From positions 1-64,000 of the forward strand of contig JAFTWA010000054.1 of the NCBI GenBank assembly GCA_017465565.1: DNA of 64,000 bases, read 5' to 3'. The stretch comes from Tyzzerella sp. (GTDB taxonomy: Bacteria > Bacillota > Clostridia > Lachnospirales > Lachnospiraceae). Positions 23,236 to 45,907 of the stretch are shown piece by piece. Position 1 is the first letter of the stretch, and each line of letters starts with the position of its first letter. Below the pieces are notes generated by a model. The model was not told the DNA's origin, made no database searches, and saw only the letters and a list, made by a program, of their open reading frames with translations. The translations under genes and the position numbers were made by a program.

Positions 23236-23300
23236 GGAAAATAAGGACAATTTTTTAGTTTAAAGGGAACCTTAAATAAGGTTTCCTTTTTTGTTACCAT
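23236..23300 (+). promoter_or_regulatory. 65-bp regulon element, copy 1 (upstream of the GH127 gene)
   Basis: GGAAAATAAGGACAA block, palindrome AAAGGGAACCT (23262-23272) with AGGTTTCCTTT (23279-23289), then extended -10 TGTTACCAT (23292-23300). Here the palindrome differs from the other copies at TCT/AGA -> CCT/AGG, a compensated change. The start codon is 55 bp further on. Confidence 0.85.
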
Positions 23301-23354
23301 GAAACATGAGAAAAGTACGGAAAATCTACAGTTTAAGACGGAGGATTTTGAGTA

Positions 23355-26282
23355 ATGTATGTATTTGAAAGAGAACAAGTGAATCAGTACAAAACTGGCA
23401 GAGCAATATGTCAGTTTGAAGGTATCATGGATAGAACAATGCGTTTTGTTGAGGAATTTCAACTCACGGATGTCGTATTGTGGAAACGTTTTGTAGAGCA
23501 GTTTCGTCTGCAGACAGATATAGATGATGCAGGATGGCGAGGAGAATACTGGGGCAAGATGATGCGAGGAGCATGCTTCGTGTATTCTTATACAAAAAAT
23601 GAGGAATTGTATGCAATTTTGGCAGAGACCATCAGAGATATGATGGAGAGATGTGATGAATATGGACGCATCAGTACCTATGATGTGGAGCATGAGTTCA
23701 TCGGCTGGGATATTTGGAGCAGAAAATATGTCATGCTTGGCATGCAGTACTTCTTGGAAATTTGTCAAGATGAAAAACTTGCAGATGATATTATTGCGTG
23801 TATGTGCGGGCAGGCAGATTATATTATGTCGAAGATAGGCCCAGAAGAAGGGAAAAAGCCGATTACCGATGCCACCAATCATTGGCGTGGTTTAAACTCT
23901 GTGTCCATTTTAGAGCCAATCGTTAGATTGTATAATCTGACGCAGGAGGAAAAATACCTTACATTTGCAGAGTACATAGTGAGCACGGGCGGTACTTCTA
24001 TAGAGAACATATTTGAACTTGCACTGGCAAATCAGTTTTATCCATACCAGTACCCAGTGACGAAGGCATACGAGATGACTTCCTGCTTTGAAGGGTTACT
24101 GGAGTTTTATCGTGTCAAGAAAATCGAGTGGCACAAAACTGCAATCATAAATTATGCCAACCGAATTTTGGAAAGTGATTTTACAGTCATTGGAAGCAGC
24201 GGGTGTACACATGAGTTATTTGACCATTCTACCGTGCGTCAGGCAAATACAACCAACGAAATCATCATGCAGGAAACCTGTGTCACAGTAACTCTGATGA
24301 AATTCTTTTATCAGCTCACATTACTTACCGGGAAATCGGACTATGTGGATGCATTTGAACGTGCATTATATAACGCATACTTAGGAGCTGTGAACACAGA
24401 AAAATCCATTGAACCAACCATACGAGATATCTATCCAGATGCAGTGATAGAGCCTCTGCCATTTGACAGCTACAGCCCACTTACGCCAGGTACCAGAGGC
24501 AATGGAATCGGCGGTTTGAAGCTGATGCCAGACTCACACTACTATGGCTGCTGTGCGTGTATCGGTGCAGCGGGAATCGGAATCGTACCTAAGATGACAC
24601 TGATGAAGTGCGACAATGGAGTGGCAGTGAATTTGTACATTCCAGGAACCATTCAGACGACAGCTCCAAGTGGTGAGAAAGTGATTCTGACTGTGAATAC
24701 AAAATATCCTCAGGATGGACATATTAGAATTCAGGTCGATACCAATGCCAAGGAAGCATTTTCGATTCGCCTTCGTAATCCAGCGTGGAGCAGGGAGACG
24801 GAGGTGCGAGTGAATGGAGAAGTGCTCGCATTACAAGAAGGATATATTGAGTTTATTAGATGTTGGAAAACGGGGGATGAGATAGAACTTATTCTAGATA
24901 TGCGTACAGAAGCAGTTTATCCAATTCCTTACGGACATGAGATTTTGATGAATAAAGTAATTTGGGGACACAATTACATGGTTTCCACCTATGATGTGGA
25001 GGACCCGAAAGCAAAGTATCATCTGGCACTGCGCCGTGGACCGCTTGCACTGGCGGTGGACAGCCGACTTGGATATGATGCAGGAGGAACCTTTGATATT
25101 GCTGTCTCAGAGGACGGTTATGTAAAGGTGCAGGTTCCAGAAGAAGAGACGGCGCCTTATGAACATATGATTGAGCTGGAAGTTCCTATGGAGGATGGCA
25201 CGAGTTTTCGTGTGACAGATTATGCTTCGGCAGGAAAACTGTGGACAGAGGAAAGCAAAATGGCAGCATGGATTTACACAGGTAGGTCGAGGGGGAGGAG
25301 AATAATGATGACAATATGTGGAGACACTAATTATTTGCCAGGCTGGATTGGACAAAAGGAAGATGGCATGTTTGTAAGAAAAGCTATTTTCAAAACGAAT
25401 AAGAGTGATACGCAGCCGATTCGAATATTGAATTTCGCGGACGTTCACCTAAATTATATAAATGAAGAAGACCTTTCCAATGAAGAGGTGATGTATTCAA
25501 AAGAGTGCCGCACATGGAATGCAGACGGTGCTTCTGTGAAAGCACTGGAAAAAGCCATGAAGTATGGGGAAGAGTTTGATAAGATTGTGATTACAGGTGA
25601 CGTAATGGATTATCTTACCTGCGGTGCCATGGAGTTAATGGACAAGTATATTTGGGAAAAGGATCCAAATGTTATGGTGGCGCTTGGAGGACACGAGCTT
25701 ACAAGACAGATGCAGACGGGCCGTCCTGATATGACCACTTTGGAGGAACGTCAGGCGGTAGTAGAAAAATTCTGGCGTCATGATATGTATTATCTTTCTG
25801 AAGTGCTGGGGGATAAGGTCATGATCATTCAGCTCGATAATAGCTGCCATAAATATTGGGATTTCCAGATTGAGAAGCTTGCAAGAGATATTGAAATCGC
25901 AAGAGAAAAAGGATATATCATCTTGATTTTCCAACACGAAGGAATTTCGACAGGGAAGCCGGAGGACGCAGAGAATGTATTCGCAATCCGAGAGAGCGAT
26001 GGTGCTGGAAATCATATCAATTTCTACAATAGACATGTAGTAGGCCATATTGGAGAGTCTAATAAGGCGACGAGAGAAGTATATAAACTTTTAACAGAAA
26101 ATGCAGATGTAATTAAGGGATTTTTCTGTGGGCATTATCACAGTGCATATTATACAGAAGTAAAAGGAAGCTATCTGGATGAAAATGGTCAGAAGCAAGA
26201 GGTTATGATTCCGCAGTATGCAGTGGAAGGTCTTGTCTACGATGACTATGTGGGGCATGTAATGGAAATCACTGTGGTATAA
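23355..26282 (+). CDS. GH127-like beta-L-arabinofuranosidase fused to a metallophosphoesterase
   Basis: 975 aa, no signal peptide, so cytoplasmic. Residues 1 to about 640 form an (alpha/alpha)6 GH127-like enzyme. The Zn site E-x-C...CC is present (Glu307, Cys309, Cys399, Cys400), and Glu287 in HELFDH fits the second carboxylate. Residues about 650-975 form a calcineurin-like phosphoesterase: NFADVHLN, TGDVMDYL, GGHELTR (Gly in place of Asn), FQHEG and FCGHYHSAY. The join contains a good internal ribosome binding site (GGGAGGAG at 25293-25300) before in-frame ATGs at 25305 and 25308. This suggests two once-separate genes whose stop was lost; the second half may also be made alone. Preceded by the 65-bp element. 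Confidence 0.85.
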   Translation: MYVFEREQVNQYKTGRAICQFEGIMDRTMRFVEEFQLTDVVLWKRFVEQFRLQTDIDDAGWRGEYWGKMMRGACFVYSYTKNEELYAILAETIRDMMERCDEYGRISTYDVEHEFIGWDIWSRKYVMLGMQYFLEICQDEKLADDIIACMCGQADYIMSKIGPEEGKKPITDATNHWRGLNSVSILEPIVRLYNLTQEEKYLTFAEYIVSTGGTSIENIFELALANQFYPYQYPVTKAYEMTSCFEGLLEFYRVKKIEWHKTAIINYANRILESDFTVIGSSGCTHELFDHSTVRQANTTNEIIMQETCVTVTLMKFFYQLTLLTGKSDYVDAFERALYNAYLGAVNTEKSIEPTIRDIYPDAVIEPLPFDSYSPLTPGTRGNGIGGLKLMPDSHYYGCCACIGAAGIGIVPKMTLMKCDNGVAVNLYIPGTIQTTAPSGEKVILTVNTKYPQDGHIRIQVDTNAKEAFSIRLRNPAWSRETEVRVNGEVLALQEGYIEFIRCWKTGDEIELILDMRTEAVYPIPYGHEILMNKVIWGHNYMVSTYDVEDPKAKYHLALRRGPLALAVDSRLGYDAGGTFDIAVSEDGYVKVQVPEEETAPYEHMIELEVPMEDGTSFRVTDYASAGKLWTEESKMAAWIYTGRSRGRRIMMTICGDTNYLPGWIGQKEDGMFVRKAIFKTNKSDTQPIRILNFADVHLNYINEEDLSNEEVMYSKECRTWNADGASVKALEKAMKYGEEFDKIVITGDVMDYLTCGAMELMDKYIWEKDPNVMVALGGHELTRQMQTGRPDMTTLEERQAVVEKFWRHDMYYLSEVLGDKVMIIQLDNSCHKYWDFQIEKLARDIEIAREKGYIILIFQHEGISTGKPEDAENVFAIRESDGAGNHINFYNRHVVGHIGESNKATREVYKLLTENADVIKGFFCGHYHSAYYTEVKGSYLDENGQKQEVMIPQYAVEGLVYDDYVGHVMEITVV

Positions 26283-26295
26283 TATTGTTATACCA
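26275..26295. promoter_or_regulatory. Palindrome TGGTATAA-TATTG-TTATACCA
   Basis: Perfect 8-bp arms overlapping the stop codon of the fusion gene and lying 23 bp upstream of the AraC gene. It contains a TATAAT-like box and could be the AraC promoter/operator. Confidence 0.45.
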
Positions 26296-26317
26296 ACGAA
26301 AGAAAGGAAGAAGTAGT

Positions 26318-27274
26318 ATGAGAGAATCATTGATTCAAACCATTCGAGAAAAGCGGTGGATAAGGTATGGAAGCAATGATAAAGATATAGAAGAAAATGG
26401 AAGTTCTATTATGTTAATCCATAAAGATGATTTCTTGAAGGATGGGCAGATTCTTGCAATTTTTCCGCACAATCGATATAGTACTACGAAACTGCATCGG
26501 CATGATTTTATTGAAATTATGTATGTGTGTGATGGTCAAATCACCCATTATATCGGGGATAAAGAAATCGTGATGAAAAAGGGTGATATACTGCTGATGA
26601 ATCAATGGGTAAAACATAGCATCAAGGAAGCGGGACCGGATGATATTGGCATCAATTTCATTACCTTGCCAGAGTTTTGGGATATTCCATCAAAAATGCT
26701 TCGCAAGAAGAATGTCCTTGCCGATTTTCTGGTAAATATCTTGAGAGAAAATCATCGGACTGCGGACTATCTTTTCTTTCGACTAGAAGAAAACCGTGCG
26801 ATTGATAATCTCGTGGAAAATATGATTGAGACGATGCTTTCCAAGAAAGAGGATGTTGAGATTTTAAACCAGTATTCTATGGGACTAGTGTTTCTTCATT
26901 TGTTGGACCATGTAGAAAACTTGACCACAAACTCTTTGAAGGACGCGAAGGATGTCATGGTGCAATCGATTTTGAATTATATTGACACTCATTACAGAAC
27001 GGCAAATCTTACAAAGATTGCGGGGGATTTCAAGCAGTCTGTATCGGTGCTCAGCAAGATGATAAAACAGCGGACTGGTTATACTTTCCAAGAATTGTTA
27101 CAGCAGAAGCGATTTGAAAAAGCATCCTCGTGGTTAATCGACACAGACTTATCAATTGAGGAAATTGTGATTGCTGTAGGGTATGAAAATCAAAGCTATT
27201 TTTACAGGCAATTCAAGGAAAGATATGGGATGACACCGAGGGAGTACCGTATCAAATTTCAAAGCGAAAAATAA
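26318..27274 (+). CDS. AraC-family regulator within the glycan locus
   Basis: 318 aa from ATG 26318 (AAAGGAAG upstream). Cupin sensor domain (RHDFIEIMYVCDGQITHYIGDKEIVMKKGDILLMNQWVKHSI). The C-terminal AraC HTH pair is LTKIAGDFKQSVSVLSKMIKQRTGYTFQELL and IEEIVIAVGYENQSYFYRQFKERYGMTPREYR. It lies between the GH127 unit and the ABC importer, and its last codons run into copy 2 of the 65-bp element. It is the most likely regulator to bind that element, by position only. Confidence 0.9.
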   Translation: MRESLIQTIREKRWIRYGSNDKDIEENGSSIMLIHKDDFLKDGQILAIFPHNRYSTTKLHRHDFIEIMYVCDGQITHYIGDKEIVMKKGDILLMNQWVKHSIKEAGPDDIGINFITLPEFWDIPSKMLRKKNVLADFLVNILRENHRTADYLFFRLEENRAIDNLVENMIETMLSKKEDVEILNQYSMGLVFLHLLDHVENLTTNSLKDAKDVMVQSILNYIDTHYRTANLTKIAGDFKQSVSVLSKMIKQRTGYTFQELLQQKRFEKASSWLIDTDLSIEEIVIAVGYENQSYFYRQFKERYGMTPREYRIKFQSEK

Positions 27275-27330
27275 GGACAATTTTTTGGTCAAAAGGGAAT
27301 CTAAAAAAAGATTCCCTTTTTTGATACCAT
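27266..27330 (+). promoter_or_regulatory. 65-bp regulon element, copy 2 (upstream of the ABC importer)
   Basis: Palindrome AAAGGGAATCT (27292-27302) with AGATTCCCTTT (27309-27319); extended -10 TGATACCAT (27322-27330). Its first bases overlap the AraC stop codon. The SBP start codon is 52 bp downstream. Confidence 0.85.
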
Positions 27331-27381: not shown

Positions 27382-29205
27382 ATGAAAAAAATTAAAAAAA
27401 TGATTGCCTTGTTACTCGCGGCTGCAATGTGTATCAGCGTAGCAGCATGTGGTAATAGTGGAAGTGACGTGAGTGAGGAAGCGGGAGACAGAACTGTAGT
27501 CTACTACGCAGCGTCTTATGTTACAGCACAGGTGAGAGATGCTTATCTTGAAATGGTTGAAACTTATAACAACGGACAAGGTAAGGAGGACGGTGTTTTT
27601 GTACAAATGACAGATAGTTCGGGAGCAATTGCAGGTTTGGATTCTGCACTCCGCAGCAACTATATGTACGATGTATTACAGCTCAACGATGATGAGTACA
27701 AAGCACTCGCTATGAAAGGCGGAAACTATTTCGTTGCATTGGATGAATATCTTACAGATGACGCGAAAGCAACAATGAGCTGGGATGATATTCCAGACAG
27801 TTTGGTAAACCGTTTCCGTATGAATACAGAAGTAGATGAAAACAATCAGTTCCTTGCAGGGGAAGGCGCAAGTCTTTTGGCATTACCAATTGGAAATAAT
27901 CCACAGGTTCTCTGGTACAACAAGGCCATTTTAGAGAAATGTGGAATGAACTTAGTTTCTGTTCCAGAAGAAGAGTTGGAAGCTTACAATTCAGCAAACA
28001 GTGCAACACTTAAAGCACATGGTTATGCAGAATACAAGGAAGCTCCATTTGCAGATGCAAAGAGCAGTAAGAACGAAGCAGGCGAATTTGTTTATAAAGT
28101 ATTCAATGAGTGCATTCCAATGAACTGGGAAGAACTCCGCTGCGTTGCACGTGCAATTCAAAAACAATACGGATATGAATATGGCTTCATGAGTGAATGG
28201 TGGTTCAGCGTAGGCTGGTCAGTTGGTGGAGACTGTATCGGTTTCAACGAAGAAACAGGAAAATACGAACTTACACTTACAGACAAGCAGGCAAACTACT
28301 TGGCATTAGAAGACATCACAGTAAACGGAACAAACTACAGCAAGGGTGATGTGCTTCACTACGAAGATAAGACATTATTAAATACAAATGCCAGTGAAAA
28401 ACAGGCGCTCAGCGGAAAAATCTATGAGCTTCCATCTACATACGATGCAATCTTAGAATTTAACCGTTTGGGTGTACCAGCCGACAAAGACGCAGATACA
28501 GGAATCAAAGGATACGGAGTTGCTCCAAGCACAACAACAAACCGTGCAGCAAGATTTACATCGGGAACAGACTGCCCATTCCTTATTGAATATTTTTCAA
28601 ATGCAAACTCTTACAAATCGATTCTCGGTGACAGCCTTGGTATGACAACACCAACACAGTACAGAGAATATGTAGGCGGAAGTACATATAACAATGGTGG
28701 AACAGACTACTTAAAAGTAATCGGTGAGACATACGATGGAGCAGTTTATACCGGTGATTTGAAAGAAGAAAATGGCACAGCAATCGTTGGTGAATGTACA
28801 ACAGCCAGCGAAGCATCTGGACTTTTCCTTCCAGCAAATACAAAGAATAAAAATCAAGACGCAGCATTCAAATTTGCAAGCTGGGTAGCAGGTCCAGAAG
28901 CACAGGCAATCCTTTCAAAAGGAAATACGATGGTTCCTAACCAGACTGCATACGGACTTGGAGAATACGATACAGCAGAAGAAAGAACAATCGCAAATAT
29001 GCGTGCTGGTGCGATGGTGGCACAGAAAGCCGACATTGGTGATTATACATACTTCACATCCTTAACATGGATTACAGAGTGGTCACAAACCTTCAACAGT
29101 GACGTGCGTGAAGGTAAGATGACACTCACAGAATTTATGAATGCAAAGAAAGAGGTAGCTGATACCGCGCTGAAAGGTATGAATATCCGAATTCTTGGGA
29201 GGTAG
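27382..29205 (+). CDS. Carbohydrate ABC importer, substrate-binding lipoprotein
   Basis: 607 aa. Lipoprotein signal peptide with lipobox SVAAC (lipidated Cys23), so it is anchored outside the membrane. The mature part is a family-1 (MalE-like) periplasmic-binding fold, longer than usual (about 420-550 aa), with VLQLNDDEYKALA, PIGNNPQVLWYNKAILEKCG and GLFLPANTKNKNQDAAFKFASWVAGPEAQ typical of sugar binders. It is first in an operon with two permeases. No ATPase gene is in the window; a shared MsmK-type ATPase is likely. Confidence 0.92.
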   Translation: MKKIKKMIALLLAAAMCISVAACGNSGSDVSEEAGDRTVVYYAASYVTAQVRDAYLEMVETYNNGQGKEDGVFVQMTDSSGAIAGLDSALRSNYMYDVLQLNDDEYKALAMKGGNYFVALDEYLTDDAKATMSWDDIPDSLVNRFRMNTEVDENNQFLAGEGASLLALPIGNNPQVLWYNKAILEKCGMNLVSVPEEELEAYNSANSATLKAHGYAEYKEAPFADAKSSKNEAGEFVYKVFNECIPMNWEELRCVARAIQKQYGYEYGFMSEWWFSVGWSVGGDCIGFNEETGKYELTLTDKQANYLALEDITVNGTNYSKGDVLHYEDKTLLNTNASEKQALSGKIYELPSTYDAILEFNRLGVPADKDADTGIKGYGVAPSTTTNRAARFTSGTDCPFLIEYFSNANSYKSILGDSLGMTTPTQYREYVGGSTYNNGGTDYLKVIGETYDGAVYTGDLKEENGTAIVGECTTASEASGLFLPANTKNKNQDAAFKFASWVAGPEAQAILSKGNTMVPNQTAYGLGEYDTAEERTIANMRAGAMVAQKADIGDYTYFTSLTWITEWSQTFNSDVREGKMTLTEFMNAKKEVADTALKGMNIRILGR

Positions 29206-29210
29206 TTCAT

Positions 29211-30194
29211 ATGGAGACAAAGACAAGAGCCACAGCAGTGGCAAGTAAAAAGAAGAAAAAGTGGAAAAAAGAGCAGAAGATTTCTCTGGTAGTGGCACTC
29301 ATTCCGCTTATAGGATTCGTTATTTTTAACGGTTTTCCACTTGTTATCTCTTTTATTGGGTTGTTCTGTAACGTGGATTTATATGACCTTGGAAATATAC
29401 AGTGGAACAATTTCGAAGGATTTAAGTCGGTGTTTATACCGAGACATGGATTTGACTTGTTCTATTTTGATTTATCAAAATATTTTTACAAGGCAATCAA
29501 GATCACATTGTGGGTAGCGTCAACTCAGCTTGTGACGCTTCTCATTGCACTTTTTATTGCAACGCTTCTCCGCGAAAAATTCGCGGGAAGCAGACTGTTC
29601 CAGATTTTATTCTTTATTCCTTACATCTGTTCTACGGTTGCGGTAGCGCTGATGTGGAGATGGATTTTTGACTGGGAAGGCGGCATTTTAAATACCATTT
29701 TAGGAACTGGTACGAAATGGCTGGAAGACCCGAAGACGATGACATGGTGTATCATCATCGCCATTATCTGGCAGGCACCTGGCTACGGTATTGTAATGTA
29801 TAAAGCAGCATTTTCTAATATTAACAATGCGCTCTATGAGGCGGCAGCGATTGACGGGGCAAATGCATGGCATAAGTTCCGCAATGTAACACTTCCAGGA
29901 ATCAGTCCGACCACCTTCTTCCTGTTACAGTCAGGTATTGGAGCCGGATTCTTAACTTACGACCTGGCAGCGTTAGTAATTCCAGATGCGTGGGGCGTCC
30001 CTGGCGGTAATGAGTCCATGGGTCTGACCATGATGCGTCTGGTGTACTTCCTGATTACCAACTCGACGACAACAGATGCCAACGGCGTGAGCTACATGGT
30101 ATCCTGCGCATGTGTAATCAGCTGGCTGCTCTTCGTGGTAACAGGCGCACTTTCGATGATTATGCTGAACAAACGTGAAGAGAGTATGAAATAG
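29211..30194 (+). CDS. Carbohydrate ABC importer permease, MalF type
   Basis: 327 aa with six predicted membrane helices after a Lys-rich N terminus (KKKKKWKKEQK). The permease EAA loop EAAAIDGANAWHKFRNVTLPGI contacts the ATPase. It starts 5 bp after the binding-protein gene, and the second permease follows 13 bp later, so the three are one import operon with the GH43 gene. Confidence 0.93.
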   Translation: METKTRATAVASKKKKKWKKEQKISLVVALIPLIGFVIFNGFPLVISFIGLFCNVDLYDLGNIQWNNFEGFKSVFIPRHGFDLFYFDLSKYFYKAIKITLWVASTQLVTLLIALFIATLLREKFAGSRLFQILFFIPYICSTVAVALMWRWIFDWEGGILNTILGTGTKWLEDPKTMTWCIIIAIIWQAPGYGIVMYKAAFSNINNALYEAAAIDGANAWHKFRNVTLPGISPTTFFLLQSGIGAGFLTYDLAALVIPDAWGVPGGNESMGLTMMRLVYFLITNSTTTDANGVSYMVSCACVISWLLFVVTGALSMIMLNKREESMK

Positions 30195-30207
30195 GAGGGG
30201 TGAGATT

Positions 30208-31107
30208 GTGAGTAAAAAGAACAAAGTAAAAACAGTAAAACGCCTCTCTGTAGGAAGAATATTAACTTATGTCGCACTCATTGCATATACATTATTCCTA
30301 TTCTTCCCACTGGTGACGGTGCTTATTTCATCCGTCATACCTAGTGAAGAATTGGCAGTTGGAAAGACCTTTATCTGGTGGTCAGACAATGTCAATCTGG
30401 ATGCATACAAAGCAATTTTCTTGAACGACAGCTATAAAGATATCGTGGGAATGCCAGGACTTGTGCTTGGATTCATCAACACGATGTGGCTCACCTTAAT
30501 TCCACTTTGTGTTGGACTTTTGACAGCAGGTCTTTCAGGATTTGCATTTTCAAAAATGGATTTCCCATTCAAGGAAAGATTGTTTAAGTTTTCGATTATT
30601 ATTCGAATGATTCCTTTAGGGGCATTTGGAATTATCTCTTATGTGTTCTATTCAAATATTGGATGGACAGGAGAAAATGGATTCCTTCCACTTCTTATCC
30701 CAGGAATGTTCGGTGGTATTGGAACCATGTTCTTCCTTCGAATCTATTTTGACGGAATTCCAGATTCCCTTGTAGAAGCAGCAAGACTGGATGGTGCAGG
30801 CTTCTTCCAGTTATTCTTCAAAGTAATGGCACCACTTGCAAAGCCTGCCTTTATTTCCCAGTTTATCTTTGGGTTTGTAGGCGGCTACAATAGTTATCTG
30901 GGACCACAGCTTTATCTGCAGAATCAGCCGAAGTTCGTAACACTTCAGTTGTATCTGAGCCAGATTCGAAGCCTCTTCCCGATGGCAGGAAGCGAGAATA
31001 TCTACTGTGCGGCGGCACTTTTAGGTATGATTCCATTGATTATCATTTACTGCTTCATGCAGAAGTATTTCATAGATGGTATCACGGTAGGCGGTGTAAA
31101 AGAATAA
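30208..31107 (+). CDS. Carbohydrate ABC importer permease, MalG type
   Basis: 299 aa, GTG start at 30208 with AGGAGGGG upstream. Six membrane helices and EAA loop VEAARLDGAGFFQLFFKVMAPLAKPA. Partner of the MalF-type permease. It ends 18 bp before the GH43 lipoprotein gene. Confidence 0.93.
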   Translation: MSKKNKVKTVKRLSVGRILTYVALIAYTLFLFFPLVTVLISSVIPSEELAVGKTFIWWSDNVNLDAYKAIFLNDSYKDIVGMPGLVLGFINTMWLTLIPLCVGLLTAGLSGFAFSKMDFPFKERLFKFSIIIRMIPLGAFGIISYVFYSNIGWTGENGFLPLLIPGMFGGIGTMFFLRIYFDGIPDSLVEAARLDGAGFFQLFFKVMAPLAKPAFISQFIFGFVGGYNSYLGPQLYLQNQPKFVTLQLYLSQIRSLFPMAGSENIYCAAALLGMIPLIIIYCFMQKYFIDGITVGGVKE

Positions 31108-31125
31108 GGGAGGTGTTTACACGCA

Positions 31126-32934: not shown

Positions 32935-32948
32935 AGGAGGTGTTATAG

Positions 32949-35900: not shown

Positions 35901-38900
35901 TCTTATTACAATTTTGATGAAGAAGACACAGCAAAATATCGTTCTGCAGATGGAATCGATTTCAGAATGGTACGACAAGGAACAAATTTCCACCTCTTTG
36001 TAGATGGTGAATATAAGACAAGCGTAGATTTATCTGAATACATTAAGGCGGATACAAAAGCGACTGTCAGAATCAACCATAATGATGATGAAGGCGTGAA
36101 ACTTGAAATGCCATATGCTGTAACAGACAAAGTGGACATCGGAAAGATTTACTTCGGATATCACAGAGCCTGGGATGTTACAAATCAATTTAATGGAAGT
36201 GTATCACAACCAAAGGGTGGAAACACCGTATGGCTCAGATTCTTAGAGAAGATTACAACGATGGATTTGAATATTAAGATATTGGATAATCCGAATTCCG
36301 ACGAGGAAGTTCCAAGCACAAATGTTAGATTTGAATTTGATGGTGGTGAAACATTCCTTGTAAGCGTAGGAGTGAATTCCAACGACGGAACAATCCATCT
36401 TTGGAATCAAAAATCTACAACCAACGAAAAAGCAAAGAGTCTGTTTAAGTTTAGTGCTGAGGAACAAGCACAGTATGAGACAGAAGAAGGCATTGACTTC
36501 AGAGTGGTGCGTAATGGAACAGATGTCCTATTCTTCCTCGATGGCGAATATAAGGCGTGTGTAGATTTATCTGAATTTGTTGAAGCAGATACACCTGCAA
36601 TCGTTTCTATTCAGCATGTTGGAGACAAAGGTGTTCCATATGTAATGCCATTTACTATGATTGAAACATTAACTCCAATTAAGGTGAAAGATAACACAGA
36701 AGAAACATTAGGAAGCCTTAAAACATTGTTTGCTTATAATGAAACAATTGTAGTGAAAGGGGATGAACTAAATGATTCTTCGAAATATTTATCTGCAATC
36801 CAATTGGATAATAATGAAGAAACGCCACTCAGCATGAAGGGAATAATCACGTTCCATGTTGCAGGGGATTCTCATACAGTCACAGGTAAATACAAAACGG
36901 CTATTTTTGAGGCCAACAATCAGTGGATATTAGTAAATCAAAATCAAGGTACTAAAGATGGAGTGACAAGTGGTGTTGTCACACTTCCAAATGGTGGTGA
37001 CAGTAATACTCTCTATTTGTATAGAAGTGGTTCGGAAGGACAAAAAGGTTACGACTATGGAGATATAGATCTTACTTTGACATTAAGAGATTATCAATCT
37101 GTTGGTGATAAACCTAGATATTTGGTTAAATTTATTTTCAAAACTGGTAATGGTGAAAAAGTATTACAACTTTATGTAGATGAAGGTGGACGCATTAGAA
37201 CTTCGCAACATACTACTTTGCCAATTGGAAGTAATGTACTTTATAACTTCACGACAGCGGAAGCATCTGCATATCGTGGCAATGGTATTGATGTTAGAAT
37301 CTTAAGAGAAGGTGCAAAACTATCATTCTATGTTGGTGGAGAATTTAAAAAGAGTCTTGATTTGGCAGCACATATAGATAACGAGACCATGTCAAGAATT
37401 GGAATTGTACATAATTATGAAGCTGGCGTGCAAGTTGATATTCCATACAAATTATCATTCCCTACTAAGAAGGTAATTGGCCAAGATGGTGCAAAATATT
37501 TGTCTATCTTAGGTGATGGAATAAGTATGTGTACGGGCATGCCGAATAATCCAGATGGAACAAGTACCGCTACAAATAATTCAACTACAGCAGTAAATAA
37601 TGCTAGTAGTATTTATGGGAATCCACTCAACTTTGGAATTAAAGATGATTGGACTAAGACCTACTGGGGGCGTTCATTAGAAACAAATAACATGCAGCTT
37701 CTTGTGAACAACTCCGTAAGTGGTGGAAAGTTGTATGAAGATGCAAATGCTACAACACACAAAGCTGGCTATAAGAGAGCCGGTGAGTTACACGCAAACA
37801 CAGGTGCGTTAAGCGGCGAGAAGCCAGATGTTATTTATTTGTACATGGGCACAGAGGATCGTAAACAAACCGGAGTGAATAATAGAATTTCCGAATTCGA
37901 ACAACGCTATAGAGAAACACTTAATATGTTTGTGTCAAAGTATCCTGATGCGGAAATATTCTGCTTTACAACAATGGCATATTCTGAAAGTGGAAAATAT
38001 TGGGGAGACGGAACTACTGCAAGTCAATCAGCGACACCAAGAATGCAAATGGTTAACGCTAGCATAAGAAAAATCACAAGTGAGTATGAAAATGCGACAT
38101 TAGTGGATATTGCAGACATCATTAAAAATGATGATACATTTAATTCTCATTTCCCAACGACGGGTACTTATATAACTCCAATGGCATCTACTCATAAAAA
38201 AATTGCAGAAAGACTGCAAGAAGCTCTAGAATCACAATTTAGAGTGGAATCTCAAATCACACTTGTGAATGAGACTGAAGATGAAGGTTATCTCAGTATG
38301 GAATCACCGAGAGAAATATATGCTTTAGGTGACAAAGTGGTAATTAAAACAGAGGCAGTCAATGCATCACATTACCTTCATTCATTAACTGTAGATGGCA
38401 AAAAAGTAGAAGTGAGTTCCGATGGAACATACGAATTAACTGTTAGCAGAGTTTCGCACGTGGTAGAAAGCACCTTTAGAAAGAAAATTTTTGAAGATAA
38501 TACTAGTTGGGTATTATCAGAGCAAAATCAAGGCACTGTAAATGGAGTGACAAGTGGTGTTGTTACGCTTCTAAATGGCGGTGACAGTAACACTCTTTAT
38601 CTGTATAGAAGCAGTTCAGATGGACAAAAAGGTTACGACTATGGAGATATTGATCTTACTTTAACTTTAAGAGATTATCAGGCTGTTGATGGTAAACCTA
38701 GATTCTTAGTTAAGTTTATCTTTAAAACTGATAGTGGTGAGAAAGTATTACAACTTTATGTAGATGAAGGTGGACGAATAAGGACTTCGCAACATGATAG
38801 TTTGCCAATCGGAAGTAATGTACTTTATAACTTTGCGACAACGGAAGCATCTGCATATCGTGGCGATGGCGTTGATGTTAGAATCCTAAGAGAAGGTACA

Positions 38901-41579
38901 AAACTCTCATTCTATGTTGACGGAGAATTTAAGAAGAGTCTTGATTTGGCGACACATATAGATAGTGGAACAATGTCAAGGATCGGAATCATACATAATT
39001 ATGATGAAGGTGTTCAAGTTGATATTCCATACAAATTGTCGTTCCCTGAAAAGGAATCGACAGAGGGCAAGTATCTTTCAATTTTAGGCGATGGAATTAG
39101 TATGAGTACTGGAGAACCAGATAGCAGTTTGAACAACACAACGATTGCGAACAATAACAAGACGCCGTCAAGTGGTGAAAGTGGAATTTATGGTAATACG
39201 GTAAATAACGATATCGGAAGTGATTATACAAAACTGTATTGGGCACAATCACTTACTGCGAATGGTATGCAGTTATTGGTAAATAACTCTGTTTGTGAAG
39301 GAAAAATGGCTACCTATGACACTTCAACAAATCCTATTTTGACGCGAGCAGTGAATTTACATGCTGATACAGGAACGTTAAATGGTACAGAGCCAGATGT
39401 AATTTATCTGTATATGGGAACAGAAGACCGTAAACAAAAGAATCTTGGTGACGGACAGACAGCCAATCTAAATAGTTTTGAAACAGCATATAGAGCTACA
39501 TTGCAAGCAATTACTGATGAATATCAAGATGCAGAAGTATTTTGTTTCACAACAATGGGATACGATTCGGGAGCTGCTAATGATCCATATAGAGGAGAAG
39601 GCGGTACGAATCCGAATTCAGGCGGTGTTCAAAGAATGAGAAATGCCAATAATATTATTAAGAAGGTGGCAAGTGAGTTTGAACATGTAACATTAGTGGA
39701 TATTTCACACTTTATCACAAAAGATAACTACAGGAGTGAGGGATATTTTAAGGATGCTGGGAAAATGATAACCCCAAGCCTTAAGGCTCACAATAAAATT
39801 GCAGAAATACTTCAAGAGGCTTTAGAATCGCAATTCAAAGTAGGCTATGAAATCTCTCTTAGTTCTACAGGTAAAGGCGAAGTGAAAACAGACAAAGCGG
39901 CTTACAAGTTGGGTAATACAGCTACAATTACTACAATTCCTGCAAATGATAACTGTTATCTTGCATCACTAAAAGTAGATGGTGAACCTGTTGAAGTAAA
40001 TGCAGCAGGAACCTATAGTTTCACTGTTACTAAGAATAATCATACAGTTGAAGCAATCTTTAAAGACAAGATTTCAGTTGTGACAATTAATGACACAAGC
40101 CTGTTCTACATCAACGATAAAAAGACATCAATTGCAGATCCATTCGTATTAGATAATGGTGATGGAACTTATTATTTATACGGGACAACTGCATCAGGAC
40201 TGGATACATATGCATATAGTTCTACAGACTTAATGACATGGACAGAAGTTGGAAGCGTCTTAGACGCTTCCTGCAAAGAAGTACTTCAAAAGGACATTTG
40301 GGCTCCAGAAGTTGTGAAAGAAGGAGATACTTACTATATGTTCTTTAGTGCAACTCCAAAGTCAGATGGAAGTGTTGGAAATGCAGAAAAACAACTGATG
40401 GTTGCAACTTCAAAAAATCCAGATAAGGGATTCAAGTTAGTAGACTTTACCGATAAACATGCAATTGACGCAAATAAATATTCACATTCCTATGCAAAGT
40501 ATTTGTTATTCGAACCAGAAACCTATACAGAATTTGCAGGTAGAAATAGTGGATACACAGGTGCAATCGACCCACATCCATATGTGGACGAAGCTGGTAC
40601 AAAATATCTCTTCTGGAAAGTGGAACAAGCACCTGGAAACATTTGTGTAGTGAAGATGAACAACTGGTTAGAACCAGATTGGAGCACAGCAAAAGTTGTT
40701 CTTGATTCTACAGGAGAATTGAATGATAATGTGGAAGGACCAGCGGTAATCAAACATGGTAGCAAATATTATTTGACATATTCTACAGGAACATATGAAA
40801 ATAATACATACCAAGTTCGAGTTGCATATGCCGATAGTATTACAGGAGCGTATACAAAATTGTCAGCTGAGAATGGTGGAATCCTTCTTTCTGGCGAACA
40901 AGTAGGAAATCCAAGTATTACAGGTACAGGCCATCATTCATTCGTAACTGTAGGAGAACAATTATACATTGTTTACCACAAACATGATGATTTGTCCCAA
41001 AATGGAAAGGATAGACACCATGCCATCGACGAAGTGAAGTGGAACAAAAACGGAGATGACTTAGACGTAATGTATGTAAATGGACCAACCTCAACATATC
41101 AGCCTAAGATTATTGGTAGTGCTTATACAAATATTGCGGGCACTGCTACAGTTTCTGGCACAACAGATGCTTCTTATCTGACAGACGGTTTGCTTTCTGT
41201 ACAAAAGAACGGTAATGCAACTTTTATAAATAATATAAAAGAAACAAGCATTGCAAATACAACAACATTTACATTTGAATTTAATTCTGTAAAAGAAGTT
41301 GGGGCTATTATGACTTACAATTCAAAGAATGATACAACATTCTTTAAAAATATTTCAAGAATTGAAATGATTGGCGAGAAAGACGGTCAAAATGTAATTT
41401 ACTACATGAATAATGTGAAATTCAATGAAGCATATTATACGGACAACAAAGTAATACCTGGTTCTGCAGCATATGCAGTATTCAACCCATTGAATATAAA
41501 ATCGATTAAAATTACAGTAGAGGTACCAGCAGGACAAAGCTCAGTTGGTATTTCAGAAATTAAAATTCTTGGAAAATAA
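32949..41579 (+). CDS. Giant 2,876-aa anchored multidomain glycan enzyme (CBM9 / LamG / SGNH x2 / GH43)
   Basis: Membrane anchor at residues about 12-31 and no sortase motif, so it is tethered by its N terminus and faces outward. Domains in order: CBM9-like (about 59-268); a carboxypeptidase-regulatory-like fold (357-438); LamG-like modules (about 440-618, 627-798, 875-1060, 1068-1238); InlB-like B-repeats between modules; LamG-like 1318-1504, then SGNH esterase 1 (1516-1766; GDGIS, MGTEDRK, THKKIAE); a second LamG (1846-2033) plus SGNH 2 (2041-2296; AHNKIAE); and GH43 (Asp2397, Asp2541, Glu2596) with a discoidin-like tail. It would bind a plant glycan, remove acyl groups and cut side chains at one place on the cell surface. 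It follows the GH43 lipoprotein gene by 14 bp. Confidence 0.9.
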   Translation: MEKKSKLSSKKLMIIIAAVFLVCAAALGILAYSQNRVKQVASEEDYGYVNPDETKADPDAGITIDGVLDEKEYQDNNWLYMRNDNGNATVDIAMTSYYGEKGMYFVYDVTESTPIYVNLNRSSTFNSCVEMYLALSDVTSMDSSEIFEIDLLPTGDMVFKQRNGKGAFMDVATTSDKMAHLGATTKGGEINTEDCYGYCLEFYIPWDYLEFLGMDVKEIKTDYVFVNTAHITSYNYAGNAETDRYWYSFAQQLGGNGWGNVSLYYRFDKDGVIGTVPVELVQGDHYTMEGVDRVIPGVKTHVEITPEDGYAINSILVNGEEYIKKVSYNEDGSISLDIRGVKEGLKISASAEAVTEGNKTLSGTVKVHKVGGDSLKGVTASYVGPNGEKPITIDSKGNFKLTDLKQGFYTITVEKAGYEKIERGIYLNRNIDTELVLEYLMFEVESGRCWQLEYVNDGIINKMGGFGSLVTTDSYKKFSVEANFKYYEDVAESLEEQDRQEQRQGIRIKFSNDKYWHIDLLYQKEKYFIQYAKATTASIFNFRDIYVLSEEEVEKFKSEDGIQLKVVRDGNRAIIYLGGNLIAVEDLDKEYVNLTARVGFESWGPFTDVRSMEYKITSDTGVDVNALYFGYHKAWDVTKQFEGVVSQPKGGNTVWLRFFEKLTDIDMTIKVLDNPKSDKVVPSTNLRFEFDNDKVFLASIGINSGDGTIHIWNQKSTTNAKTKSLYKFTTDEQAQYMTEEGIDFRFVRSGTELLFFIGGEYKTSVDLSEYIKDDTKAIVSIQHHGDQDVPYVMPFTVSEQTDSVTITQKESAGKEYKTEKGTTVSVSAEEGYYIKKLSLNGKDVSEGLTLDGRYIFVAEEANYTMKATLVKCIFETTYGWNLLEQNQGTKDGVTTGMVSLPDGGTTRTNLSFIKKYADMDLTWRIKDHPNSDASNTTAPRTSFEFIFDEVLKGDNKKFTLSVSESNKGVVQIQNTSGLKDKAYYSYYNFDEEDTAKYRSADGIDFRMVRQGTNFHLFVDGEYKTSVDLSEYIKADTKATVRINHNDDEGVKLEMPYAVTDKVDIGKIYFGYHRAWDVTNQFNGSVSQPKGGNTVWLRFLEKITTMDLNIKILDNPNSDEEVPSTNVRFEFDGGETFLVSVGVNSNDGTIHLWNQKSTTNEKAKSLFKFSAEEQAQYETEEGIDFRVVRNGTDVLFFLDGEYKACVDLSEFVEADTPAIVSIQHVGDKGVPYVMPFTMIETLTPIKVKDNTEETLGSLKTLFAYNETIVVKGDELNDSSKYLSAIQLDNNEETPLSMKGIITFHVAGDSHTVTGKYKTAIFEANNQWILVNQNQGTKDGVTSGVVTLPNGGDSNTLYLYRSGSEGQKGYDYGDIDLTLTLRDYQSVGDKPRYLVKFIFKTGNGEKVLQLYVDEGGRIRTSQHTTLPIGSNVLYNFTTAEASAYRGNGIDVRILREGAKLSFYVGGEFKKSLDLAAHIDNETMSRIGIVHNYEAGVQVDIPYKLSFPTKKVIGQDGAKYLSILGDGISMCTGMPNNPDGTSTATNNSTTAVNNASSIYGNPLNFGIKDDWTKTYWGRSLETNNMQLLVNNSVSGGKLYEDANATTHKAGYKRAGELHANTGALSGEKPDVIYLYMGTEDRKQTGVNNRISEFEQRYRETLNMFVSKYPDAEIFCFTTMAYSESGKYWGDGTTASQSATPRMQMVNASIRKITSEYENATLVDIADIIKNDDTFNSHFPTTGTYITPMASTHKKIAERLQEALESQFRVESQITLVNETEDEGYLSMESPREIYALGDKVVIKTEAVNASHYLHSLTVDGKKVEVSSDGTYELTVSRVSHVVESTFRKKIFEDNTSWVLSEQNQGTVNGVTSGVVTLLNGGDSNTLYLYRSSSDGQKGYDYGDIDLTLTLRDYQAVDGKPRFLVKFIFKTDSGEKVLQLYVDEGGRIRTSQHDSLPIGSNVLYNFATTEASAYRGDGVDVRILREGTKLSFYVDGEFKKSLDLATHIDSGTMSRIGIIHNYDEGVQVDIPYKLSFPEKESTEGKYLSILGDGISMSTGEPDSSLNNTTIANNNKTPSSGESGIYGNTVNNDIGSDYTKLYWAQSLTANGMQLLVNNSVCEGKMATYDTSTNPILTRAVNLHADTGTLNGTEPDVIYLYMGTEDRKQKNLGDGQTANLNSFETAYRATLQAITDEYQDAEVFCFTTMGYDSGAANDPYRGEGGTNPNSGGVQRMRNANNIIKKVASEFEHVTLVDISHFITKDNYRSEGYFKDAGKMITPSLKAHNKIAEILQEALESQFKVGYEISLSSTGKGEVKTDKAAYKLGNTATITTIPANDNCYLASLKVDGEPVEVNAAGTYSFTVTKNNHTVEAIFKDKISVVTINDTSLFYINDKKTSIADPFVLDNGDGTYYLYGTTASGLDTYAYSSTDLMTWTEVGSVLDASCKEVLQKDIWAPEVVKEGDTYYMFFSATPKSDGSVGNAEKQLMVATSKNPDKGFKLVDFTDKHAIDANKYSHSYAKYLLFEPETYTEFAGRNSGYTGAIDPHPYVDEAGTKYLFWKVEQAPGNICVVKMNNWLEPDWSTAKVVLDSTGELNDNVEGPAVIKHGSKYYLTYSTGTYENNTYQVRVAYADSITGAYTKLSAENGGILLSGEQVGNPSITGTGHHSFVTVGEQLYIVYHKHDDLSQNGKDRHHAIDEVKWNKNGDDLDVMYVNGPTSTYQPKIIGSAYTNIAGTATVSGTTDASYLTDGLLSVQKNGNATFINNIKETSIANTTTFTFEFNSVKEVGAIMTYNSKNDTTFFKNISRIEMIGEKDGQNVIYYMNNVKFNEAYYTDNKVIPGSAAYAVFNPLNIKSIKITVEVPAGQSSVGISEIKILGK
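36900..38245 (+). repeat. LamG-SGNH module, first copy of an internal duplication
   Basis: This LamG-like plus SGNH stretch is repeated at 38485-39835. The LamG part (about 36930-37460 against 38515-39045) is nearly identical at protein level, for example GVTSGVV, YDYGDIDLTLTLRDYQ and DIPYKLSFP. The SGNH part has diverged more. Confidence 0.85.
38485..39835 (+). repeat. LamG-SGNH module, second copy
   Basis: Offset of about 1,585 bp from the first copy. High identity in the LamG part and lower in the esterase part suggests duplication with recent gene conversion or selection on the LamG half. Confidence 0.85.
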
Positions 41580-41585
41580 TATTTA

Positions 41586-41617
41586 TTTAGGCGGGACAAT
41601 TGAGCGTCCCGCCTAAA
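41586..41617 (+). terminator. Hairpin after the giant gene
   Basis: 12-bp GC-rich stem (41586-41597 with 41606-41617, TTTAGGCGGGAC / GTCCCGCCTAAA), 8-nt loop. It likely ends the import-GH43-giant operon, with some read-through possible into the next gene, for which no clear promoter is seen. Confidence 0.75.
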
Positions 41618-41655
41618 ATACATAAAAACACATTTCACAAATAAGGAGGTCAACC

Positions 41656-43281
41656 ATGACTGAATATTGGAAAGACGACGATTATTGTGTACAAAAAGAA
41701 AAACTTACACCGGTATCTGTAAAGGATTCCAGAGAGGTAAAAGGTATAGAGGAACTGTTAAGCGGAAAGGCTTCCTGTGTATCTTTTCATAAAGAGCATG
41801 TCACAGAATTTGCAAAGCAAGGTGCCTATGTGGTGCTGGATTTTGGAAAGGAAGTGTGCGGTGGCTTAAGATTCGTTACACGTGACGTAAAAGGAATGGC
41901 AGAATTTCGCATTACATTTGGCGAATCTCTGTCGGAATGTTATACCACTGTGGGCGAAAAGAATGCAGGCAATGACCATGCACTAAGAGATTTCAAGGTG
42001 CAGATTCCATTTATGTCAGATTTGACCTTTGGACAGAGCGGCTTCCGTTTTGCGAAGGTAGAATTAGTAAGTGAGAGTCCAGTGCTGGTGAAAAATATTT
42101 TCGCAATCAATACTCTTCCAGTTTTCGAAAAAGAAGGCTTTATCACGACCAGTGACAAGGAGCTGAATAAGATTATTGAGACTGCCCTGTATACGCTGAA
42201 ACTGAATTTTCAGAACGGTTATATTTGGGACGGAGTGAAGAGAGACCGTTTGGTGTGGTCTGGTGATTTGAACCAGGAGATTATCACATCTCTTTATCTC
42301 TTCGGTGATAATAAGAATATTACAAATTCGCTTTCATTTCTGCGCCACGAGACATTAGAGGGCGCATGGATGAACAATATCCCATCGTATTCCGCTTGGT
42401 GGGTGATTAATCTCTGCGATTACTGTCGCATGACTGGAAATCGAGAGTATTTTAAAGAAAATAGAGCTTATGCGAAAGCGATTTTGAAGAAATTAGATGA
42501 CTGCATTGATGCAGATGGAACTATGGAATTTGGTGCAGGAAGCATGTCGTTCTATCTGGATTGGCCGACACGTGGAACGGAAGATGCAGTGATTGGAACG
42601 GCGGCACTTCTTATCTATGCGGCAAAGGCATTTTTATGGATGGAAGAAGCAACCGAAACTGCTTCTGAGAAGGAGGGCTGCGTACAGGAAACTTGCCATA
42701 GTATCATAAGCAAGCTGGAAACGTATCTTGAGAAGCCATGTGAATTCAAGCAGACTCGTGCATTCCAGATTCTTGCGGGAAGAAATGCTGACGGAGAGGA
42801 CGCATTTTTGGAAAAGAATGGCGCAGACGGCTATTCTACATTTATGGCGTACTATATCTTAACTGCCGATGGAGTCGCAAATGGTAAAGAGATGCTGTCC
42901 ATCATCAAAGAGTATTTTGGCGCTATGCTTTCTCGCGGTGCGACCACATTCTGGGAAGATTTCCACATGGATTGGCTGGAAGGCAGCGGGCGAATCGATG
43001 AGCTTCCCAAAGAAGGTGAGAAAGATATTCACGGTGATTACGGTGCATTTTGCTATAAAGGCTTCCGCCATTCATTGTGCCATGGCTGGGCGTCAGGTGT
43101 GCTCGCTTTTGTGATTGAGTACATGCTGGGACTCAAGTTAGAAGATGGCGGAGAATGCTATGAAGTGCATCCGCATTGCATGGGAATTGACGAGATTCAT
43201 GCGAAGATCCCGATGAAGGAAGGGTATTTGCAGATTGATGTGGTGGATGGAAAAGCAGTTATTACGGTGGTAGAAAGTTAA
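41656..43281 (+). CDS. GH78-like alpha-L-rhamnosidase, compact form
   Basis: 541 aa from ATG 41656 (AAGGAGG upstream), no signal peptide. Short N-terminal beta domain (YVVLDFGKEVCGGLRF), then the (alpha/alpha)6 barrel with IWDGVKRDRLVWSGDLNQEI, which takes the place of the GH78 motif DxPQRDERxGWxGDxQ. Also AWWVINLCDYC, TTFWEDFHMDW with the likely general base Glu, and HGWASGVLAFVIEYMLG. Shorter than standard GH78 (about 850-950 aa), it belongs to the broad GH78-type group, so the exact sugar is uncertain. Cytoplasmic, acting on imported oligomers. Confidence 0.8.
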   Translation: MTEYWKDDDYCVQKEKLTPVSVKDSREVKGIEELLSGKASCVSFHKEHVTEFAKQGAYVVLDFGKEVCGGLRFVTRDVKGMAEFRITFGESLSECYTTVGEKNAGNDHALRDFKVQIPFMSDLTFGQSGFRFAKVELVSESPVLVKNIFAINTLPVFEKEGFITTSDKELNKIIETALYTLKLNFQNGYIWDGVKRDRLVWSGDLNQEIITSLYLFGDNKNITNSLSFLRHETLEGAWMNNIPSYSAWWVINLCDYCRMTGNREYFKENRAYAKAILKKLDDCIDADGTMEFGAGSMSFYLDWPTRGTEDAVIGTAALLIYAAKAFLWMEEATETASEKEGCVQETCHSIISKLETYLEKPCEFKQTRAFQILAGRNADGEDAFLEKNGADGYSTFMAYYILTADGVANGKEMLSIIKEYFGAMLSRGATTFWEDFHMDWLEGSGRIDELPKEGEKDIHGDYGAFCYKGFRHSLCHGWASGVLAFVIEYMLGLKLEDGGECYEVHPHCMGIDEIHAKIPMKEGYLQIDVVDGKAVITVVES

Positions 43282-43350: not shown

Positions 43351-43394
43351 TTTTGAGTAAATATAAAATTTATTCTATTTATACAAAATACACA

Positions 43395-43423: not shown

Positions 43424-43462
43424 TAATACACAACGTGTAATGAAAGAAAGGATGATTATATT

Positions 43463-44576: not shown

Positions 44577-44586
44577 CATGGTCTTT

Positions 44587-44651
44587 GGAAAATAAAGACA
44601 ACTTTTTTGTTGAAAGGGAATCTAAAATTAGATTCCCTTTTTTGCTACTAT
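44587..44651 (+). promoter_or_regulatory. 65-bp regulon element, copy 3 (upstream of the SGNH gene)
   Basis: Palindrome AAAGGGAATCT (44613-44623) with AGATTCCCTTT (44630-44640); extended -10 TGCTACTAT (44643-44651). The start codon is 58 bp downstream. Confidence 0.85.
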
Positions 44652-44708
44652 ATTATATAAGGAAAAATATCTACATTTATGGAAATATAGAGAGGCAGGG
44701 AACGGAAA

Positions 44709-45851
44709 GTGAAATCTCAGTTTATTCGTTATCGAAGACCTTTAGTAAATACATATAGAAAATTAACGCAAGATAAGAAATTAAATGTTGTCTATTTTGG
44801 CGGTTCTGTGACCGCCGGCTATGGCAGTACGGATAAGGAAAAGTATTCTTGGAGAGCGTTGTCTGCTAAATGGCTTCGCGAACATTTTCCAGAAGCAGAC
44901 ATACGAGACATCAATACGGCCATAGGAGAAAGCGGCACTTTTCTGGGGGTGTATCGATTGGAGAGAGACATTTTATCACAGGCTCCGGATTTGCTTTTTA
45001 TTGAATATGCAATCAATGATTTCTTTTTTGGTTCTTCCATGGAAGTGGCAGCACTGCAGTATGAAACGATTGTAAGAGAAGTGAAAGCACGCTTGCCGCA
45101 GTGTGATATTGTAACTCTGATTACGGATTGTCGTGAAACAGCCGAGGCAGAAGAACTTTACGGGGCGGCTTGTGGGCATGAGAGAATCGCCAGCGTGTAT
45201 CAGATTCCTACTATTTATGTGGGGAAAGCATTGGTGGATAGTCTGCCAGCCTTATGTGATGATGAGTGGAGAAAATATTATATCGATATTGTGCATCCGA
45301 CGGATGCAGGGTATTTTACATATTACAAATGTGTTGAGGAATATTTACATCAGAGTCTGATAGCTTCGCCGCCAGATATGCAGAGTGCAGAAGAAATGGA
45401 AGTGATTCCGTTGCAGAGTAAGCATTTGTTAGACGGAAATCGTGTCTATCAGAACTGCAATCAGGATATGTTGAAAGAATCTGTAGGTTTTTATTATTCA
45501 GAAGATATTTATTTGGCTTTGCCAGAGACTCCTTATGTGGGCTACATTTACGCAGAAAATAGTGAGGCAGAGTTTGTCTATAGATTTCAAGGAACGGAAA
45601 TTGCCATGCTTTCGAATTTCAAGAGAGAATCAAAGATTTTATACTCTGTGGATGGCGGAGAGTGGATAGAAAAACATGGCTCAACCCATAATCCAACCGT
45701 GATTGCGCAGCATTTGGAAGCGGGAGAACACGTCATTAAACTGCGGCCTGTTTTTACGGAAAATTCACCGGAACAAATGAAGATAGCAGTCATATTTACC
45801 AGAGACGAAGCATTAGAAACGAAACAATCTAACTTAGTATTCGGAAAATAA
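44709..45851 (+). CDS. SGNH/GDSL hydrolase (acyl esterase)
   Basis: 380 aa, GTG start at 44709 in GGAACGGAAA context. Cytoplasmic; no signal peptide. SGNH blocks: VVYFGGSVTAGYG (nucleophile Ser), AIGESGTFLG (Gly), FIEYAINDFF (Asn) and IDIVHPTDAGY (catalytic Asp/His). The C-terminal half (about 230-380) is a beta-sandwich typical of two-domain carbohydrate esterases. It would deacylate sugars after import. It shares its last codons (VFGK-stop) with copy 4 of the 65-bp element. Confidence 0.88.
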   Translation: MKSQFIRYRRPLVNTYRKLTQDKKLNVVYFGGSVTAGYGSTDKEKYSWRALSAKWLREHFPEADIRDINTAIGESGTFLGVYRLERDILSQAPDLLFIEYAINDFFFGSSMEVAALQYETIVREVKARLPQCDIVTLITDCRETAEAEELYGAACGHERIASVYQIPTIYVGKALVDSLPALCDDEWRKYYIDIVHPTDAGYFTYYKCVEEYLHQSLIASPPDMQSAEEMEVIPLQSKHLLDGNRVYQNCNQDMLKESVGFYYSEDIYLALPETPYVGYIYAENSEAEFVYRFQGTEIAMLSNFKRESKILYSVDGGEWIEKHGSTHNPTVIAQHLEAGEHVIKLRPVFTENSPEQMKIAVIFTRDEALETKQSNLVFGK

Positions 45852-45907
45852 GGACAACTTTTTGGTTGAAAGGGAATCTAAAATTAGATTCCCTTTTTTG
45901 GTACTAT
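45843..45907 (+). promoter_or_regulatory. 65-bp regulon element, copy 4 (upstream of GH78 gene 2)
   Basis: Palindrome AAAGGGAATCT (45869-45879) with AGATTCCCTTT (45886-45896); extended -10 TGGTACTAT (45899-45907). It overlaps the SGNH stop codon; the next start codon is only 24 bp downstream. Confidence 0.85.

Follow-up and report, generated by a model that had tools for sequence, protein, structure and literature searches.

AraC-family rhamnose regulators of several lineages (RhaR and RhgR of the Bacillales, and those of Bacteroides and Enterococcus) have operators described as direct repeats with a 21-bp periodicity, and their regulons are mostly local, comprising one to several operons; RhgR is the Bacillales regulator for rhamnogalacturonan (Rodionova et al. 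2013, PMC3870299). Tandem symmetry is ascribed to AraC groups in general in the discussion of the same paper, and for RhaS and RhaR of E. coli it gives inverted half-site repeats, with two 17-bp sites separated by a 17-bp spacer in the case of RhaR. The locus analysed here resembles the former regulators, by description and not by sequence, in its AraC-type regulator, its rhamnose/rhamnogalacturonan genes and an operator whose direct repeat spans about two helical turns, whereas its spacing is 22 bp instead of 21 bp and its operator is fused to a hairpin. Clostridia are absent from the lineages named in the legend of Figure 3 of that paper. With E. coli RhaS and RhaR at rhaBAD and rhaSR it shares a rhamnose-responsive type of AraC-family activator of rha genes and sensor-domain similarity, whereas the half-sites are inverted there and directly repeated here. 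Neither an operator-terminator-promoter cassette nor a description of this operator in Lachnospiraceae could be recognised in the open-licence literature covered, mostly titles and the beginnings of abstracts. The four-copy cassette presented below, a probable operator, terminator and promoter in one, is built on an operator that is itself of known kind.

The initial annotation of the window (the whole 64,000-nucleotide stretch of DNA analysed here) had described four 65-bp elements, and all of them were confirmed at their positions (Table 1) in a gap-free alignment, always on the plus strand, with a mean column identity of 90% over 75 alignment columns. The AAATAARGACAA block, the T-run, the hairpin arms and the extended -10 motif TGnTACYAT were found in every copy. 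The copies are codirectional, belong to one cluster and end 23-57 bp ahead of a start codon. Two of them overlap the preceding gene: the stop codon of the araC gene (27272-27274) falls inside half-site 1 of copy 2, and that of the GDSL hydrolase gene (45849-45851) inside half-site 1 of copy 4.

Table 1. Predicted elements of the four cassettes and the genes associated with them (window positions)
Feature	Position	Strand	Remarks
Cassette, copy 1	23236..23300	+	promoter (predicted) of GH127-araC operon
Half-site 1 (predicted), copy 1	23239..23256	+	AraC site; alignment columns
Half-site 2 (predicted), copy 1	23261..23275	+	AraC site; holds ACCTTA, the consensus form of relatives
Hairpin, copy 1, then T's	23262..23289	+	terminator-like for upstream gene
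-10 TACCAT, extended by TGn, copy 1	23295..23300	+	sequence; operator distance as in relatives
GH127-type glycosidase gene	23355..26282	+	first gene behind copy 1
AraC-family regulator, rhamnose (RhaS/RhaR) type	26285..27274	+	TTG start, ATG at 26318; behind copy 1 and GH127 gene
Cassette, copy 2	27266..27330	+	promoter (predicted) of SBP-permease-permease-GH43 operon
Half-site 1 (predicted), copy 2	27269..27286	+	AraC site; matrix and alignments
Half-site 2 (predicted), copy 2	27291..27305	+	AraC site; matrix and alignments
Hairpin, copy 2, then T's	27292..27319	+	folding
-10 TACCAT, extended, copy 2	27325..27330	+	sequence; operator distance as in relatives
Solute-binding protein, two permeases, GH43 gene	27382..32934	+	behind copy 2
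2876-aa GDSL/GH43 protein and rhamnosidase-like gene	32949..43281	+	codirectional behind copy 2
Cassette, copy 3	44587..44651	+	promoter (predicted) of GDSL hydrolase gene
Half-site 1 (predicted), copy 3	44590..44607	+	AraC site; matrix and alignments
Half-site 2 (predicted), copy 3	44612..44626	+	AraC site; matrix and alignments
Hairpin, copy 3, then T's	44613..44640	+	folding
-10 TACTAT, extended, copy 3	44646..44651	+	sequence; operator distance as in relatives
GDSL/SGNH hydrolase gene	44709..45851	+	behind copy 3
Cassette, copy 4	45843..45907	+	promoter (predicted) of rhamnosidase-rhamnosidase-GH3 operon
Half-site 1 (predicted), copy 4	45846..45863	+	AraC site; matrix and alignments
Half-site 2 (predicted), copy 4	45868..45882	+	AraC site; matrix and alignments
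Hairpin, copy 4, then T's	45869..45896	+	folding
-10 TACTAT, extended, copy 4	45902..45907	+	sequence; operator distance as in relatives
Two alpha-L-rhamnosidase-type genes and GH3 gene	45931..52647	+	behind copy 4

Occurrence of the element at random sites, which the annotation had named as the mark of a plain dispersed repeat, was looked for in the assembly of this genome (3,220,347 bases in 62 contigs, 88.6% complete) and was not found. A degenerate 34-bp pattern searched with up to three mismatches gave four matches, all of them the four copies, and its reversed control gave none in the same assembly. By blastn the same four were the only strong matches (E < 1e-13), the others being weak or consisting of the palindrome read backwards. 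Nothing similar was found in nine other genomes of the genus except two weak partial matches. When the palindrome was searched with up to six substitutions in an early set of loci, only matches with 5-6 substitutions were obtained outside the window copies. A known RNA element was rejected as an identity for the sequence, since no Rfam element matched in the window at gathering scores. The length of 65 corresponds to two bases plus the 63 bp which the stretch from operator through -10 occupies in relatives as well. Since the four copies agree even in spacer letters that relatives do not conserve, the whole cassette was probably duplicated as a unit. The expression "private regulon" suits the variant, with its four matches in this genome, but not the motif, which is present in many genomes of the family.

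The operator was recognised in relatives. Upstream of rhaB genes lying beside relatives of the window AraC, a tandem repeat was found, AAATAAGGACAGTATTTT + AAATAAnGACCTTAT, its period being 22 bp. A DIGASSGRH start served to identify the rhaB genes, and the two that were tested passed the rhamnulokinase cut-off; one rhaA and one rhaD each passed one of two models. After removal of near-duplicates, 30 of 44 rhaB regions were kept, and a 41-bp matrix was built from 25 sites, all of them outside the window; one, L032, lies on a different contig of the same genome. The site was missing from the rhaB region in 5 of the 30: in L045, L047, L049 and L050 another gene precedes rhaB, and these loci have sites at other positions; L027 was without any site. 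With this matrix the four copies were the top hits of the window (31.9, 31.0, 22.9 and 21.7; next 13.8), and the best scores in 15 random windows were 9.2-17.8. The seeds of the matrix search included one site picked for its likeness to the window, and for this reason a Gibbs sampler was rerun with random starts and without window-like loci. Using 28 regions, from which the window and its nearest look-alikes were excluded, it returned the same motif and again placed the four copies on top (23.4, 21.5, 16.8 and 16.3; next 13.8). When the whole genome was scanned with the model free of window sites, copies 1 and 2 ranked first and second (E 1.2e-5 and 6.3e-4) and the rhaB site on contig 54 third; of 24 positions in all, copy 4 came tenth (E 0.43) and copy 3 eighteenth (E 1.29). 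In view of these weak genome-scan scores, copies 3 and 4 are counted as members because they are nearly identical to copies 1 and 2. The same operator site was also seen at two contig ends of one genome (G020; L143 and L144), at one of them before a rhamnosidase gene; this is probably one place split by the assembly.

These results alter the assignment of the parts within the cassette. The palindrome had been taken for the operator of the activator, which was not borne out: the operator consists of directly repeated half-sites (AAATAAGGACA..., 22 bp apart), half-site 1 being the AAATAARGACAA block and half-site 2 the left arm of the palindrome only. Half-site 2 reads AATCTAA in copies 2-4 and AACCTTA in copy 1, where ACCTTA is the consensus of relatives. 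The -10, which lay outside the matrix, starts at a distance of 16 bp behind the 41-bp operator in every copy, and a TAnnnT hexamer was found 15-16 bp after the operator in 24 of the 25 relatives (18 at 16 bp and 6 at 15 bp, the exception being L085). Other pairs of neighbouring offsets between 0 and 23 gave at most 6 of 25, the overlapping 16-17 pair (19 of 25) excepted. From this distance it follows that half-site 2 covers the -35 region, and no -35 box was visible in any of the four copies. Thus a tandem direct-repeat operator lies over the -35 region at a fixed distance from the -10 in the four copies, with copies 3 and 4 weak at the genome scale. Activation by regulators that contact RNA polymerase over the -35 region is known as class II activation.

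The AraC protein encoded behind copy 1 contains a double HTH and a cupin-like sensor (Pfam HTH_18, HTH_AraC, AraC_binding and Cupin_2). RhaS was its best NCBIfam model, yet with 80 bits against a cut-off of 288, so that the protein is called rhamnose-type after the context of its relatives and not identified as RhaS. Its N-terminal part matches E. coli RhaR chains with E 2e-4, and relatives 49-60% identical to it occur in L038-L054 with a rhamnulokinase gene behind them, that is, with rhaB adjoining. In a search of 397 genomes of the family with a 63-position model, whose filters lose weak matches, and with an AraC threshold of E <= 1e-45, the site was found at E <= 1e-4 in 62 genomes. AraC was encoded in 59 of these 62 genomes versus 114 of 397 overall (Fisher p 2e-34, an inexact value in that the own genome and those of the training sites are included and the genomes are related). 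At a looser site threshold of E 0.01, a site was found in 113 genomes, 88 of which encode AraC, and no site was listed for 26 of the 114 AraC genomes. Among the best sites of the 62 genomes, 47 were on the same contig as AraC and 34 within 300 bp of its gene. Twelve sites were chosen as non-adjacent to AraC; eight of them precede rhaB (by reading of the start motif), one a rhamnulose-1-phosphate aldolase gene and two rhamnosidase genes, and one is at a contig end. The suggestion that the AraC protein at 26318 takes the place of a -35 box is thus well supported by the matrix rank, the -10 distance, the co-occurrence and the adjoining gene.

Within the segments which we take to be the recognition helices, the second, GYENQSYFYRQF, is common to the window AraC and six relatives, L080 being one residue apart. 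The first, SVLSK, resembles those of L038 and L080, whose half-site 2 also contains GAATCT; L039, L040, L052 and L054 differ both in this helix and in half-site 2 (GGACAT or GGACGT). The first helix (VLSK versus other types) seems to vary together with half-site 2, which is a lead from few cases; the pattern used captured the helices of AraC in no more than 7 of 18 loci. This genome holds two related regulators, since contig 54 encodes another rhamnose-type AraC (G000:C54:40085-41144; L032 and L135), which has 39% identity with that of the window and is accompanied by a divergent rhaB and an operator of the variant form GGTCC. In one of the related loci (L038:3641-5167) a single 508-aa frame reads as a rhamnulokinase-like start followed by a rhamnose-isomerase-like part, possibly the result of a deletion or of an assembly error in the MAG.

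The energies of the hairpin over 41 nt were -14.1, -15.5, -16.9 and -16.9 kcal/mol, and for each copy none of 200 shuffles was as good. Folding of 81 nt gave z values of -1.6, -4.2 and -5.7 for copies 1, 2 and 3, copy 4 being left out as a near-duplicate. The stem has 12 pairs, and 47 of the 48 cells in the four copies are paired; only four of the pairs are G-C, and copy 1 also has one G-U. In copy 1, to which compensated changes had been attributed, one pair is compensated (U-A to C-G) and the G-U is a further difference; a second change on both sides concerns the loop-closing pair, which is broken in one other copy. Covariation of the stem is weak with four sequences (it is equalled by 67 of 500 shuffles). 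The T-run behind the stem core counts six T's on the plus side, compared with three or four on the opposite side, and each of the four upstream genes is encoded on the plus strand; a stable stem-loop thus stands directly before a T-run in the direction of the upstream gene. A strict terminator scan reported copy 1 and not copies 2-4, with totals about those of shuffles. Intrinsic (Rho-independent) terminators have a stem, a short loop and a T-run, shortly past the stop codon. The structures found here are alike in all of these, whereas their left arm doubles as an activator half-site and they end about 18 bp before the next expected start. There is no room for a terminator ahead of the operator where the araC and GDSL hydrolase stop codons lie inside half-site 1, and the cassette's own transcript would not contain the hairpin, since its expected start lies after it. 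To judge by this anatomy the dual use proposed for palindrome and T-run is likely, and each cassette probably also carries the terminator of its upstream gene.

In other Lachnospiraceae and Clostridia (L019, L021, L083 and others), rhaB promoters have the same operator and the same -10 distance, and in a number of them a hairpin at the corresponding position overlaps the operator. In the majority of these hairpins the two half-sites pair with each other, which is easy with a near-symmetric half-site, and in L083 half-site 1 is paired with an arm lying downstream, whereas in the four window cassettes half-site 2 pairs with an arm in the spacer. Where the upstream gene is codirectional, 19 of 37 sites had a terminator-like hairpin, versus 2 of 10 where it is divergent (p = 0.15), a trend and no proof, and many codirectional relatives were without a hairpin. 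This count started from 66 rows, of which the 4 window rows were excluded; 11 weaker antisense readings and 4 unclear arrangements were taken out of the other 62, and three gene arrangements were corrected by hand.

We consider it likely, with a probability of about 0.75, that the 65-bp element is a self-contained cassette in which an AraC-activated promoter is joined to a hairpin that ends upstream transcripts. From the sequence, its geometry, the co-occurrence of AraC and site and the predicted hairpin stability, we infer binding, activation, ligand, start site and termination. A rhamnose-type AraC, most likely the protein encoded at 26285-27274, would bind the two tandem half-sites 22 bp apart. 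Bound to half-site 2 over the -35 region, it would replace the -35 box and recruit RNA polymerase to the weak extended -10 TGnTACYAT. Transcription would then start about 7 bp past the -10 and proceed into four operons for the breakdown and uptake of a plant glycan containing rhamnose and probably arabinose. Half-site 2, the complementary arm in the spacer and the T-run would form an RNA hairpin ending transcripts that arrive from upstream, by which the upstream gene would be insulated from the new operon. Rhamnose is proposed as the inducer on account of the rhamnosidase-type targets and the sensor-domain similarity.

One alternative is that the palindrome itself acts as a DNA operator, its right arm being an inverted half-site 2 bound by AraC or by another regulator, for instance to keep the promoter closed when no inducer is present, so that no RNA hairpin is needed. 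The arms are near-perfect in all four copies, both change together in copy 1, and the half-sites of relatives are often partly inverted copies of each other, which follows from the near self-complementarity of the half-site AAATAAnGnCnTTATTT; this symmetry may have an operator role in relatives. Against this, the right arm sits in spacer columns without conservation among relatives and is missing from the sites of the two nearest of them (L038 and L080/L096), for which reason the palindrome was set aside as the operator of AraC, and the G-U of copy 1 and the longer T-run on the plus side fit RNA better. We regard this alternative as improbable, but it is the one we would place next to the cassette joining activated promoter and terminator.

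The same hairpins could be pure terminators next to an ordinary sigma-70 promoter, their likeness being due to recent duplication and any regulator, if there is one, being another. The spacer letters shared among the copies and unconserved in relatives, which point to copying as a unit, would be expected from such a history; yet it leaves aside the lack of a visible -35 box, the match of two window-free motifs to the operator, the fixed distance to the -10 and the araC gene behind copy 1, and we think it quite unlikely. Still further down is a dispersed mobile or structural repeat, present here by chance. Such a repeat would account for near-identical units of equal length, but not for their restriction, within the assembly, to four copies of one direction at a short distance before start codons, nor for the operator part upstream of rhamnose genes in other genera; with all four genome matches in one cluster it was rejected, and hardly any weight is left for it.

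If the cassette is read as activated promoter plus terminator, the locus provides a sharply defined operator for an AraC regulator of the rhamnose type in Lachnospiraceae and ties an entire cluster for glycan degradation to rhamnose sensing. The locus further suggests that stop codon, activator site, terminator and promoter may be packed this tightly, and, if the dual use holds, the letters of one half-site would be constrained by protein binding and RNA pairing alike. A more speculative extension, to which we give little credence, is that the cassette couples the two functions, AraC on the shared half-site, or the polymerase recruited by it, altering termination of the upstream transcript. 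As copy 2 ends the araC operon, AraC would in that case act through its target's operator to adjust the 3' end of the mRNA from which it is made. By duplicating the 65-bp cassette as a whole, a cluster could then acquire further promoters that are insulated and under common control.

The cluster is one for glycan degradation, rich in rhamnosidases, with each copy ahead of one operon, and its substrate is likely a plant glycan with rhamnose and arabinose, to judge from the enzyme families. The 2876-aa protein (32949-41579) has internal repeats and GDSL and GH43 domains, and parts of its gene resemble the DNA of the preceding GH43 gene (31126-32934). An ORF6N-domain gene (43527-44576) lies between the copy-2 operon and copy 3; genes of this kind are usually phage-related. 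Directly upstream of copy 1, within the carbohydrate cluster, a toxin-antitoxin pair of the MazE/PemK type was found (22649-23193). Upstream of the cluster, at 18501-21468, lie genes for a glycyl-radical enzyme (PFL-like) and for a radical-SAM protein that is likely its activase, with oxidoreductase genes beside them.
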